Shown here: one piece after another, positions 1,983-44,406 of the stretch | Layout of the letters: each line of letters opens with the position of its first letter | Position numbering within the stretch: position 1 is the first letter of the stretch | Origin: Parafrankia discariae | GTDB lineage: Bacteria > Actinomycetota > Actinomycetes > Frankiales > Frankiaceae | DNA length: 64,000 bases | Assembly: GCF_000373365.1 (NCBI RefSeq) | Contig: NZ_KB891102.1 | Location: 265,632-329,631 of the forward strand | Reading direction: 5' to 3' | Notes under the pieces: generated by a model | The model's input: only the letters and a program-made list of their open reading frames with translations | The model's database searches: none | What the model was told of the DNA's origin: nothing | Translations under genes and position numbers: made by a program

Positions 1983-3464
1983 TCACCCGCGCACGCCTGG
2001 TTCGCCGGAGTGTCCCACCGTGTTCCACGTGTTCTCGATCCCCTCGATCGCGGCGCCGGCGGCGCCGTCCCGCCGGCCCGCTGGGCCGGCCACACCATCC
2101 GCGGTCAGCCCCGTGGCCACCCGCTCGAGCCCGAACGACCGGCTCGCCTTCACCAGAACCACATCACCCGGGCGGACCTGCGCGGCCAGCAGCGCGACCG
2201 CCTCGTCCACCCCGGGCACCCAGGTCGACTCGCCGGCCCAGGCACCCTCCCGCGCCGCCGCCTGGTGCACCCGGCGCGCCCCGGCGCCGACCGCGACCAG
2301 CCGCGACACGCCCAGCTCGGCGGCGAGCCGCCCCAGGGTGTCGTGCGCGTCGTCCGCGGCGGCGCCGAGCTCGCCCATCGGGCCCAGCACCGCCCACGCC
2401 CGCCCGGCGCCCCGCAGGTCCATCAGCGCGGCCAGGGCCGCGCCCATCGACTCGGGGTTCGCGTTGTAGGCGTCGTTGAGCACGACCACGCCGGACGGCG
2501 TGGTCGTCACCTCCATCCGCCACCGGCTGCGCGGGCGGGCCTCCTCCAGCGCCGCCGCGGCCTCGGCCGGCGCGAGGCCGAGCGAGATCGCCACCGCCGC
2601 GGCGGCCAGCGCGTTGGCCACCTGGTGCCCGCCGACCAGACCGAGGCGCAGCCGGTGCCGCTCACCGCCGGCCAGCAGGTCGAACGCGGCCCGGCCGTCG
2701 CCGCCCACCTCGACGCGCTCGGCGCGGACATCCGCCGCCGCGGCGCGGCCGAAGGTGACCACCCGCGCGCCGGCGCGGCCGGCCATCGCCGCCACCAGCG
2801 GGTCGTCGGCGTTCAGCACGACCAGGTCGGTGGCCGCCTCGGCCAGCTCGCCCTTCGCCGCGGCGATGCCGTCGCGCCCGTCGGCGTACTCCCCGACGTG
2901 CGCCGACCCGACGTTGAGCACCAGACCGACCCGCGGGCGGGCGACCGCGCACAGCGTCGCGATGTGCCCGAGGCCGCGGGCGCCCATCTCCAGCACCACG
3001 AACGCGGTGTCGGGCTCGGTGCGCAGCAGGGTCAGCGGCAGCCCGATCTCGTTGTTGAACGAGCCCGGCGCGGCGACCGTCGGGCCGAGCCGGCCCAGCA
3101 GGTCGGCCAGCAGGTCCTTGGTGGTCGTCTTGCCGGCCGAGCCGGTCACCCCGACCACGGTCGCCGGGGCGAGGTCGCGCAGGTGCGCGGCGAGCGCGGC
3201 GAGCGCCGCCACCGGGTCGGCGACGACGACGGTGGGCACGCCCGTCTCCCGGGCGCCGAGGGCGGCCACCGCGCCGGCCGCGACCGCGCCGGCGGCGAAG
3301 TCGTGGCCGTCCACCCGCTCACCGGGCAGGGCGACGAACAGCGCCCCCGGGCCGGCCTGACGGGAGTCGATCACCACTGAGGTGACCGGGGCCAACCGGT
3401 CCGCGCCGGCGGTGAGCCGGCCACCGGTGGCGGCGGCGACCTCGGCGAGCGTCAGCGCGATCAT
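1983..3464 (-). CDS. murF: UDP-N-acetylmuramoyl-tripeptide-D-alanyl-D-alanine ligase
   Basis: ATP-dependent ligase that adds D-Ala-D-Ala to the UDP-MurNAc tripeptide, completing the cytoplasmic precursor. 493 aa. Order: N-terminal uridine-binding domain ([24 protein letters not shown], about residues 33-56), P-loop TGSAGKTT (about 107-114), central-domain [10 protein letters not shown] and [11 protein letters not shown], and a C-terminal domain with [12 protein letters not shown], characteristic of MurF. The ATG at 3464 overlaps the murE stop (ATGA), indicating coupled translation. The tail after about residue 460 is variable and Gly/Ala-rich. Confidence 0.96.
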
Positions 3465-41922: not shown

Positions 41923-42930
41923 GTGAGCGGCCTGCGCAGCGAGCTGGACGCGGCCGGCATCACCGATCCGCGCCTGCGCAGCTCCTACCGCGACGCCCGC
42001 GAGCTGAACGCCGCCCACGGGCGCACCTACTACCTGGCGACCCTCCTGCTGCCACGGTGGAAGCGCCCGCACGTGCACGCCCTGTACGGCTTCGCGCGGT
42101 ATGCCGACGAGATCGTGGACGACCTCGACTCGACGCTGACCGACGAGGCGAAGGCCCGGTGGCTGCGCCAGTGGGGCGACCGCTTCCGCACCGCGCTCGC
42201 CACCGACCCGGATGTGACCGAAGCCGGAAGTGCCGAGGCCGAAGCCGGCGAGGCCGGGGCCAGCGGGGTCGAGGCCGAAGCCGCCGGTGTCCAGGCCGGA
42301 GTGCTGCCGGCCTTCCTGCACACGATTCGGCGGTTCGACCTGCCGGTCGCGTACTTCGAGGCCTTCCTGGCCTCGATGGCGATGGACCTGACCGTCACCG
42401 GCTACGCCACCTGGGACGACCTCATGGTCTACGTCCACGGCTCGGCGGTGGTGATCGGCCTGCAGATGCTGCCCATCCTCGAACCCGTCGACGCCTCGGC
42501 GGAGCCGTACGCCCGCGACCTCGGCGCCGCCTTCCAGCTCGCGAACTTCATCCGCGACGTCGGGGAGGACCTGCGCCGCGGCCGCGTCTACCTTCCGCAG
42601 ACCTCCCTCGACCTGTTCGGAGTCACCCGGGAGCGCCTCGCCACCGGAGTGGTCGACGGTCCCGTCCGCCGGCTGCTGGCCCACGAGATCGCCCGCGCGC
42701 GGGAGCTGTTCCGCTCGGCCCGGCCGGGCATCCGGCTGCTGCACCCGACGTCCCGCGACTGTGTCTGGACCGCGTTCCGCCTCTACGGCGACATCCTGGA
42801 CGAGATCGAACGCGCCGACTACCAGATCCTCGACCGGCGGGTATCCGTGGGCCTCAGCCGCCGCGTCACCGTCGCGGCCCCCGCCCTGATCCGCGCCACC
42901 CGCTCCCGCCGCCACGCCTCGCCGAAGTAG
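41923..42930 (+). CDS. crtB: Phytoene synthase (squalene/phytoene synthase family)
   Basis: Condenses two GGPP into phytoene, the committed carotenoid step. 335 aa. The two Asp-rich motifs are present, YADEIVDDLD and RDVGEDLRRGRVYLPQ, with YYLATLLLPRWKRPHVHALYGFARYADE and HGSAVVIGLQMLPIL. An Ala/Glu/Gly-rich insert (about 98-126) is not conserved in the family. A squalene synthase role (HpnC/D) is less likely because crtI, cruF, cruG and a CrtD-like gene are near. Start GTG 41923 has a -10 7 nt upstream rather than a ribosome-binding site. Confidence 0.88.
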   Translation: MSGLRSELDAAGITDPRLRSSYRDARELNAAHGRTYYLATLLLPRWKRPHVHALYGFARYADEIVDDLDSTLTDEAKARWLRQWGDRFRTALATDPDVTEAGSAEAEAGEAGASGVEAEAAGVQAGVLPAFLHTIRRFDLPVAYFEAFLASMAMDLTVTGYATWDDLMVYVHGSAVVIGLQMLPILEPVDASAEPYARDLGAAFQLANFIRDVGEDLRRGRVYLPQTSLDLFGVTRERLATGVVDGPVRRLLAHEIARARELFRSARPGIRLLHPTSRDCVWTAFRLYGDILDEIERADYQILDRRVSVGLSRRVTVAAPALIRATRSRRHASPK

Positions 42931-42979
42931 ACACCATCTGCCCGAACTGCCCACCCGCCTCGAACACCGGACCACTGAA

Positions 42980-43126
42980 GTGAGTTGTGGCAGCCGGGCC
43001 CCATGCGCCGGTGGGGCAACTCGCATTCGCCGACCGGGCCGTGGGGCTCGCCACCCGAGCGCCGAGTCGTCGATGTGAGTTGTGTGGGCCGGGCCATGTG
43101 CTGGCGGGGCAGCTCGGCATCCGCGC
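42980..43126. repeat. Imperfect direct repeat of about 50 bp, each copy with a conserved hairpin
   Basis: Copy 1 begins at 42980 (GTGAGTTGTGG) and copy 2 at 43075 (GTGAGTTGTGTGG); both continue through GCCGGGCC, CATG, CGG/GGCGGGGCA and CTCG/CTCGGCAT for about 50 nt. In each, GAGTTG can pair with CAACTC (copy 1) or CAGCTC (copy 2), and an inner CCA/TGG stem is kept. The A-to-G change preserves pairing. Lies between crtB and the convergent serS. Confidence 0.6.
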
Positions 43127-43143
43127 CCAGCGCAGGGCGCGGC

Positions 43144-44406
43144 TCAGAGGAGGGCGCGGCCGCCGAGGTAGGGGCGCAGTACCTCCGGGACCCTGAGCTG
43201 GTGGTCGGCGGTCTGGAAATTCTCCATGATCGCGGCCAGCAGGCGGGGGGTGGCCACCGCGGTGTTGTTGAGGGTGTGCGCGAAACGCACGTTGCCGTCC
43301 GCGTCGCGGTAGCGCAGGTTCGCCCGGCGGGCCTGCCAGTCGTGCAACGTCGAGCAGCTGTGGGTCTCCCGGAACCGATCGAGGGTGGGGAACCACGTGT
43401 TGATGTCGTTCATCCGGAACTTGCCCAGGCCCATGTCCCCGGTCGAGCACTCGACGACCTCGTAGTGCAGGCCCAGGTCGGCCAGGATGTGCTCGGCCGT
43501 CGCCAGCAGCTCGGCGTGCCAGCGGGCCGACTCGGCCGGGTCGTTCACGCACAGGACGAACTGTTCGACCTTCTCGAACTGGTGCACCCGCAGCAGGCCG
43601 CGGACGTCCCGGCTGGCGCTGCCGATCTCGCGCCGGAAGCACGGTGAGATGCCGGCGTAGCGGACCGGCAGGCGGCTGGCGTCGAGGATCTCCCCGGAGT
43701 GCAGGCCGACCAGGGCCACCTCCGCCGTCCCGGCGAGGAACGCGTCGTCGGCGGGGATCTCGTAGATCTCCTCGCGGGCCTTCGGGAGCATGCCCGTGCC
43801 GACGAGCGGGCCCTCCTTGACCAGCGCGGGGACCGACACCGGGGTGAAGTCCCGCTCGCGCAGCAGGTCGAGGGCGTAGGAGTGGACCGCCCGCTCGAGC
43901 ATGACCATGTCGCCGACCAGGGCGTACGCCCGCTCGCCGGCGACCTTGCGGGCCCGGGCGAACTCGGCCCAGCCGCGCTTCTCGGCGAGCTCGGTGTGGT
44001 CGATCGGGGTGAAGTCGAACTCCGGCCGGGTGCCCACGGTGCGGATCACCACGTTCGCGGACTCGTCCGGGCCGACCGGGGCGCCCTCCCACGGGATGCC
44101 GGGGGTGAGCAGCATCAGCTCGGCCATCCGCGTGCTCGTCCGGGTGAGCTGCTCGCGCAGGTCACGGAGCTGCCGGTCGAACTCGGCGTGCTCGGCACGC
44201 AACTCGGCGCGGCGTGCCTCGTCAGCCTTGGCGAACTGCTTGGCGAAGGACTTGCGGCGGGCCTGGGCCTCGTCGACCTCGAACTGCAGTTTGCGGTTCT
44301 CCTGGTCGAGCTGGAGCAGTTCGTCGACGTCGAGGTCGACGCCCTTGAGGCGGACGGCCTCCTTCACTGCGTCGGGATCTTCCCGGATGAAGCGCTTGTC
44401 GAGCAT
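43144..44406 (-). CDS. serS: Seryl-tRNA synthetase, divergent type
   Basis: Charges tRNA-Ser. 420 aa. N-terminal tRNA-binding coiled coil (about 25-105), class II motif 2 ISPCFRREIGSASRDVRGLLRVHQFEKVEQF (about 265-295), and motif 3 region HTLNNTAVATPRLLAAIMENFQ (about 384-405). The typical actinobacterial SerRS reads LNGT/LNGS-x-x-A-x-x-R in motif 3 and GSHGKDTRG in motif 2; this one differs in both and in its coiled coil. All catalytic Arg/Glu in motif 2 look kept, so it should be active. It may be a second SerRS or a horizontally acquired replacement. ATG 44406; ribosome-binding site weak. Confidence 0.9.
   Translation of the reverse strand: MLDKRFIREDPDAVKEAVRLKGVDLDVDELLQLDQENRKLQFEVDEAQARRKSFAKQFAKADEARRAELRAEHAEFDRQLRDLREQLTRTSTRMAELMLLTPGIPWEGAPVGPDESANVVIRTVGTRPEFDFTPIDHTELAEKRGWAEFARARKVAGERAYALVGDMVMLERAVHSYALDLLRERDFTPVSVPALVKEGPLVGTGMLPKAREEIYEIPADDAFLAGTAEVALVGLHSGEILDASRLPVRYAGISPCFRREIGSASRDVRGLLRVHQFEKVEQFVLCVNDPAESARWHAELLATAEHILADLGLHYEVVECSTGDMGLGKFRMNDINTWFPTLDRFRETHSCSTLHDWQARRANLRYRDADGNVRFAHTLNNTAVATPRLLAAIMENFQTADHQLRVPEVLRPYLGGRALL

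Follow-up and report, generated by a model that had tools for sequence, protein, structure and literature searches.

The gap between the convergent crtB-like and serS genes of Parafrankia discariae contains two members of a palindromic repeat family that is multi-copy, mostly intergenic, located near gene 3' ends and patchily distributed in the sister species, with one copy residing inside a gene. With a probability of roughly 70%, this is a REP/MITE-like extragenic palindrome of the Frankiaceae that is mobile now or was so recently, and the window (the whole stretch of 64,000 nucleotides that was analysed) carries a decayed tandem doublet of it. A literature search, with subscription papers mostly outside its reach, returned no description of this repeat, and the family is therefore provisionally considered new. 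PMC4447401 counts palindromic repeats in Frankia genomes, which may include such elements.

The doublet between crtB and serS

The initial annotation described two copies of about 50 bp, spaced by 95 bp and each bounded by GAGTTG and CARCTC. Spacing and motifs are confirmed by the sequence, with GAGTTG at 42982 and 43077, and by the matches to a family model; the copies are real, but the palindrome is longer than proposed, about 57-59 bp (Table 1). Two covariance models were used for this family: R1, built from 15 full inverted repeats of the P. discariae genome including both window copies, and R2, built from 50 type A copies including copy 2 but not copy 1. The likeness of the doublet to the family exceeds chance, because R2, although seeded from R1, finds copy 1 without having been trained on it (E 2.4e-11, 64-kb window). 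R1 gives copy 1, a member of its training set, 61.5 bits. Both copies have the same orientation; on the minus strand, R2 scores drop to 32.4 bits for copy 1 and 20.7 bits for copy 2, the latter being part of the R2 training set. R3, a model of the second palindrome type described below, has no match in the window.

Table 1. Features of the crtB-serS region, in window positions
Feature	Position	Strand	Basis
Phytoene/squalene synthase gene, crtB-like, neighbour	41923..42930	+	PF00494, E 1.2e-71
213-bp convergent gap containing the doublet	42931..43143	.	ORFs 41923-42930 + / 43144-44406 -
Type A palindromic repeat, copy 1 (59 nt)	42973..43031	+	R2 49.2 bits, E 2.4e-11
Copy 1 left arm, GAAGTGAGTTG	42977..42987	+	sequence; family half-site GAAGYGWGTTG
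Copy 1 right arm, CAACTCGCATTC, worn	43017..43028	-	sequence; R2 alignment
Type A palindromic repeat, copy 2 (57 nt)	43068..43124	+	R2 49.6 bits, match end 43125
Copy 2 left arm, GATGTGAGTTG	43072..43082	+	sequence; R2 alignment
Copy 2 right arm, CAGCTCGGCATC, worn	43110..43121	-	sequence; R2 alignment
Seryl-tRNA synthetase gene serS, neighbour	43144..44406	-	PF00587, PF02403

The two copies share a direct repeat of 24 nt at 83% identity and are identical in 44 of 60 columns of a gapped alignment. Their outer arms read GAAG/GATG...TTG and CAR CTC...ATC/ATTC, and copy 2 contains one compensated pair, GATG/CATC in place of the family's GAAG/CTTC. On both strands, the predicted folding of the two copies is no better than that of dinucleotide shuffles (z -1.43, -0.76, +0.21 and -0.38), and the whole 213-bp gap reaches a z of -1.32. 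The inner CCA/TGG stem proposed earlier is not used in the predicted folds, and CCAT forms the unpaired centre of the family model. The change from CAACTC to CAGCTC had been taken as a sign of preserved structure, since a T-G pair is retained. This pair does not point to constraint, as the position is paired in 46 of 50 copies versus 46.6 in shuffles; the outer-stem pair that includes the T-G of copy 2 is TA in 38, TG in 8 and CA in 4 of these copies. The best reading of the window elements is a decayed type A doublet.

The type A family

Type A is a dispersed palindrome of 57 bp, analysed at 51 places in the 7.89-Mb genome of the window (G000) and at 14 places in a second species, putatively P. 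soli (G003). The loose pattern GAGTTGN{20,45}CARCTC is weak evidence alone (34 matches in G000 versus 26 for the reversed control), but at about 20 of these places there is a complete inverted repeat of 38-43 nt with the same extended ends. The 11-base half-site GAAGYGWGTTG is far more specific, with 46 versus 2 reversed matches in G000 and 18 versus 1 in G003. A covariance model had been suggested as a check, and R1 extends the 15 seed copies to many more places: among the 51 in G000, 49 are found at E <= 0.02 and two are weaker (0.155 and 2.84). Weak or partial R1 matches on contigs C123, C3, C164, C145 and C28, and three on C140, were left out. The option of a dispersed genomic repeat, one of those listed in the initial annotation, thus proves to be the right one, and the recommended genome search yields many further copies, instead of the lack of copies and of conservation in relatives that was to speak against the element.

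The consensus of 50 oriented copies of exactly 57 nt, obtained with an iterative profile, is CGCCGAAGYGAGTTGTCTSAGCCRCTCCATRCGCYGSTGRSRCAACTCRCTTCGG; these 50 of the 65 type A copies also provide the pairing statistics. Conservation ends where the palindrome ends. The centre is asymmetric, and at stem position 23/35, 43 of the 50 copies are unpaired. Five doublets, with copies spaced by 72-95 bp, occur among the 51 copies of G000. One such doublet (G000 C1:215721-215849) has a tRNA gene about 60 bp away (L132:2866-2939). According to a crude gene caller, only one of the 65 copies lies within a called gene.

The family is narrowly distributed. Among 296 genomes of the class, a strict palindrome pattern is matched by two, which belong to this genus. 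The pattern has no match in viral contigs; a viral origin was rejected on this ground. When 35 Frankiaceae genomes were searched with R2 at E <= 0.01, seven were matched. Numerous matches are confined to G000 (95) and G003 (31); G049 has eight, and four further genomes have one each.

A second palindrome type

The R2 matches include a second group, type B, consisting of almost perfect palindromes of 58 nt with CCATGG at the centre. The model R3, built from nine type B copies and run on the same 35 Frankiaceae genomes, matches G003 (84), G000 (61), G014 (17), G023 (15), G049 (6), G015 (1) and G047 (1), and has no match in the other 28. Counted by hand, distinct type B places number at least 27 in G000 and at least 39 in G003; one copy (L368), which lies at the start of a contig, is without an assigned gap. 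G014, G023 and G049 are inferred to be Pseudofrankia genomes. The single matches in G047 have E values of 1.6e-4 with R2 and 2.4e-4 with R3. A common descent of types A and B is supported, because one G003 copy (L261:17045) is recognised by R2 with 60.3 bits as well as by R3 with 33.1 bits.

A 'type D' in Frankia is not claimed, despite these G047 matches: its pattern gives single hits in G044 and G047, further single hits in G001, G008 and G049, and three control hits in G048 and G049.

Several type B copies deviate from the usual form. Four copies of G003 (L212:19772, L207:16594, L275:19402 and L247:14122) are alike in an imperfection of the right arm (GGCTGTCACTCA...CCGCCGCGGTTC, or close to it), a pattern that would result if a single imperfect master had given rise to them. 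The match at L251:1058 (minus strand) appears to be a lone half, with a right arm complementary at only 9 of 23 bases. In G003, the type B matches C56:12-71 and C232:12-71 lie equally far from two contig starts, where the palindromes may have broken the assemblies.

Comparison with known palindromic repeats

REP and REPIN sequences (BIMEs) resemble the element in being short, extragenic, non-coding, multi-copy palindromes that often occur as doublets. REPs are 21-65 nt long (PMC6006769). A REP has GT[AG]G at the foot of its hairpin, a motif which the element described here lacks above chance: within 0-2 nt 5' of the foot, it is found at 0-8 of 130 arm ends of the 65 type A copies and, at the foot of 28 type B/C copies, at 1-2 of 56 arm ends (four foot positions each; chance 0.025 per end). 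In contrast to REPs, a single unit already forms a complete, nearly symmetric palindrome. REPs also flank a gene for TnpA-REP (RAYT, a Y1 transposase), and no gene flanked in this way is seen here. The Y1 transposase family PF01797 has 18 matches in four of the six genus genomes; a RAYT/IS200 link was dismissed, as no R1 or R3 match below E 0.2 stands beside any of them.

MITEs are similar in that they are short, non-coding and variably present between relatives, and that they have terminal inverted repeats, which the element also possesses. PMC10969869 places MITEs mostly in intergenic or 3' positions, with examples of roughly 190-235 bp. These examples are far longer than the element, which is almost wholly inverted repeat. 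The longest flanking direct repeats resemble those of a shifted-position control, providing no sign of a target site duplication, of which a very short one could be hidden by inexact boundaries. An exact half-site search of G000 and G003 for an autonomous transposon with these ends listed no IS-sized pair; ten unpaired half-site loci, five per genome, have no second arm at the element's spacing.

Rickettsia palindromic elements (RPEs) are described in PMC10969869 as in-frame insertions. They share the palindromic form with the present family, in which one in-gene copy is in frame, but RPEs are about 150 bp long and frequently located in genes, whereas the copies here are 57-58 bp long and mostly intergenic. 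Finally, intrinsic bidirectional terminators are also GC-rich palindromes between convergent genes; the element differs from them by the lack of a T-tract, by its shared sequence family and by the lack of a G-U preference.

Position relative to genes

Of the gaps that hold type A copies in G000, 24 are convergent, 16 tandem and 3 divergent, compared with 23, 117 and 34 for a background made up of the remaining gaps in these loci and in the window (gap classes from the crude gene caller, eye-checked on one window stretch). This corresponds to a convergent enrichment (Fisher p 1.1e-8, with gaps shorter than 57 bp disregarded), and 14 of the 16 tandem copies lie closer to the upstream stop than to the downstream start. 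Type B/C copies are found in 15 convergent, 27 tandem and no divergent gaps (same-loci background 14, 96 and 21), with 21 of the 27 tandem copies closer to the stop. In 1.6 Mb of G003, on contigs picked partly for carrying type A, convergent enrichment is not significant (4/18 versus 118/834 gaps, p 0.31) and 10 of 12 tandem copies are closer to the upstream stop; the 14 type A copies of G003 show no 3' bias in tandem gaps (5/8). A recurrent neighbour gene was searched for among 396 proteins at 107 sites and discarded, with no cluster larger than eight and the largest stemming mainly from matching loci.

These positions, together with the proximity to stops in tandem gaps, are what functional bidirectional terminators or 3'-end RNA stabilisers would show, if kept by selection for RNA pairing with their sequence shared by happenstance. 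Such an explanation is unlikely, given that a terminator needs no common sequence over 50+ loci, that the window copies fold no better than shuffles, and that copies are present or absent between sister species and in one case lie inside an open frame. A T-tract terminator scan of positions 42850-43250 finds no site in this part of the window. The double terminator proposed for the doublet therefore fails in its canonical intrinsic form, which also conflicts with the lack of a G-U preference over A-C; a role in 3'-end formation or termination may still apply, in line with the excess of G000 copies between convergent genes and with the location near gene 3' ends.

Pairing of the arms

The strong Watson-Crick covariation of type B/C agrees both with the terminator explanation and with palindromy kept at the DNA level. 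Across 35 copies of exactly 58 nt, which were found with a structure-aware model, 727 of 840 cells are Watson-Crick, compared with a mean of 567 and a maximum of 604 in 2000 shuffles. Among the nine type B copies, 9 of 23 pairs are changed on both sides, giving 15 two-sided cells versus 5.8 in shuffles (0/500) and 0-2 when the arms are slid. In a structure-blind check, a half-site profile from 14 G000 copies yields 27 hits at 17 places in the 1.6 Mb of G003; 21 of the 27 have at least 14 of 23 complementary bases at the element's spacing, and none of the 27 at a shifted spacing. Three Pseudofrankia-type genomes (L384, L378 and L374, about 3001-3060) have a hairpin doublet at corresponding positions between two enoyl-CoA hydratase genes. 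Two base pairs are changed on both sides at this site, which likewise agrees with the terminator explanation.

In type A, the arms covary weakly at most, and the outcome varies with the test. The first 15 copies have 6 two-sided cells, below the 10.9 of shuffles, and pairs 5-22 of the 50 copies have 641 Watson-Crick cells versus 629, a value reached by 153 of 2000 shuffles. For 17 pairs chosen post hoc, 34 cells versus 20.4 and a covariation of 0.172 versus 0.137 are obtained (0/500 each), with an ordinary number of pairs changed on both sides (9 versus 7.8).

When tandem copies are read on their sense strand, 17 G-U and 16 A-C mismatches are counted in type B/C (21 copies), and 23 and 29 in type A (22 copies). 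Because G-U is no commoner than A-C on the transcribed strand, pairing seems to be kept at the DNA level: it is DNA palindromy, not RNA pairing, that seems to be maintained, contrary to what terminators would require. The 24 convergent type A copies, read on the stored and thus arbitrary strand, have 29 G-U versus 11 A-C, which runs against this reading.

Another alternative is that the two arms are half-sites at which the duplex is bound by a dimeric protein that organises the chromosome or acts as a regulator. E. coli REP/BIME sequences bind gyrase or IHF, and by analogy such a role is conceivable here. It would agree with the strong conservation of the half-sites despite mismatched arms in many copies, with the asymmetric conserved centre and its conserved C.Y mismatch at 23/35, and with the preference for convergent gaps. 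This explanation is nevertheless very unlikely: only two of the six genus genomes hold the repeat at any density, half of the sites differ between the sister species, and the arms of type B vary more widely than a sequence-specific protein should tolerate.

The hairpin-like sequence between crtB and serS could also suggest a small RNA, or an element of the riboswitch kind, that is particular to these two genes. This is highly improbable, since dozens of copies lie beside unrelated genes, whose families recur only at a few matching loci, folding is no better than in shuffles, the window contains no Rfam 15 match above the gathering score, a simple sigma-70 scan gives no promoter-like site, and R2 has no match in 42 loci fetched by serS similarity (342,531 bases; several short or without crtB). 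A search of 20 loci against Rfam 15 returns only RNase P and a tRNA, neither at an element.

Proposed mobility

Of the 51 type A copies of G000, 17 (in 14 gaps) can be placed in the sampled sequence of G003. The element is present in G003 at five of these sites, and 12 copies (9 of the 14 gaps) are absent. At the shared sites, 38-53 of 57-58 element positions and 87-95% of the flanks are identical. The doublet is missing from the crtB-serS gap of G003 according to the models at the matching site, which do not bear out an element likeness seen there by eye. At C129:272294, the G003 site retains a stretch resembling an element end, and absence at such a site may reflect loss, not a lack of insertion. 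No clean target sequence could be recovered at empty sites. G000 C1:140903 and G003 C102:102045 are alike in sequence, but were rejected as the same site, as their flanks do not align.

For a REP/MITE-like mobile palindrome, a putative enzyme would move the element in trans by recognising the palindrome as DNA, in the form either of a single-stranded hairpin or of inverted arms in the duplex. A copy that landed behind a gene, above all between convergent genes, would be tolerated and may incidentally serve as a hairpin at the 3' end. The tandem doublet of the window would have landed between crtB and serS and would now be wearing down.

A more speculative and rather doubtful extension is a superfamily of DNA palindromes of 50-58 bp, whose arms are re-copied from each other during movement or repair. 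Such hairpin-templated renewal would allow copies to diverge while each stays an almost perfect Watson-Crick palindrome, and would represent a mode of palindromic-repeat propagation not tied to Y1 transposases. The type A copies of the window would then be old and no longer renewed.

If the mobile-palindrome reading is right, Parafrankia and Pseudofrankia contain mobile palindromes with arms that covary as DNA; in the features tested, these palindromes match the definition of neither REPs nor MITEs. They would offer a test bed for repeat spread without a recognised transposase and a source of strain markers. They would also caution against taking hairpins that look conserved between convergent genes of these genomes for dedicated RNAs, as such hairpins are repeats.

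The in-gene copy is a perfect 58-bp type B element of G003 (C202:31499-31556; L319:3000-3057), located in frame within an open frame of 2381 aa that encodes ketosynthase and acyltransferase domains. The copy is missing from the best matches in G000 and G004, the latter of which contains no palindrome. With orthology assigned by best match only, and a linker too diverged for a target duplication to be read, the best match in G000 splits exactly at the copy, into residues 8-201 and 224-434.
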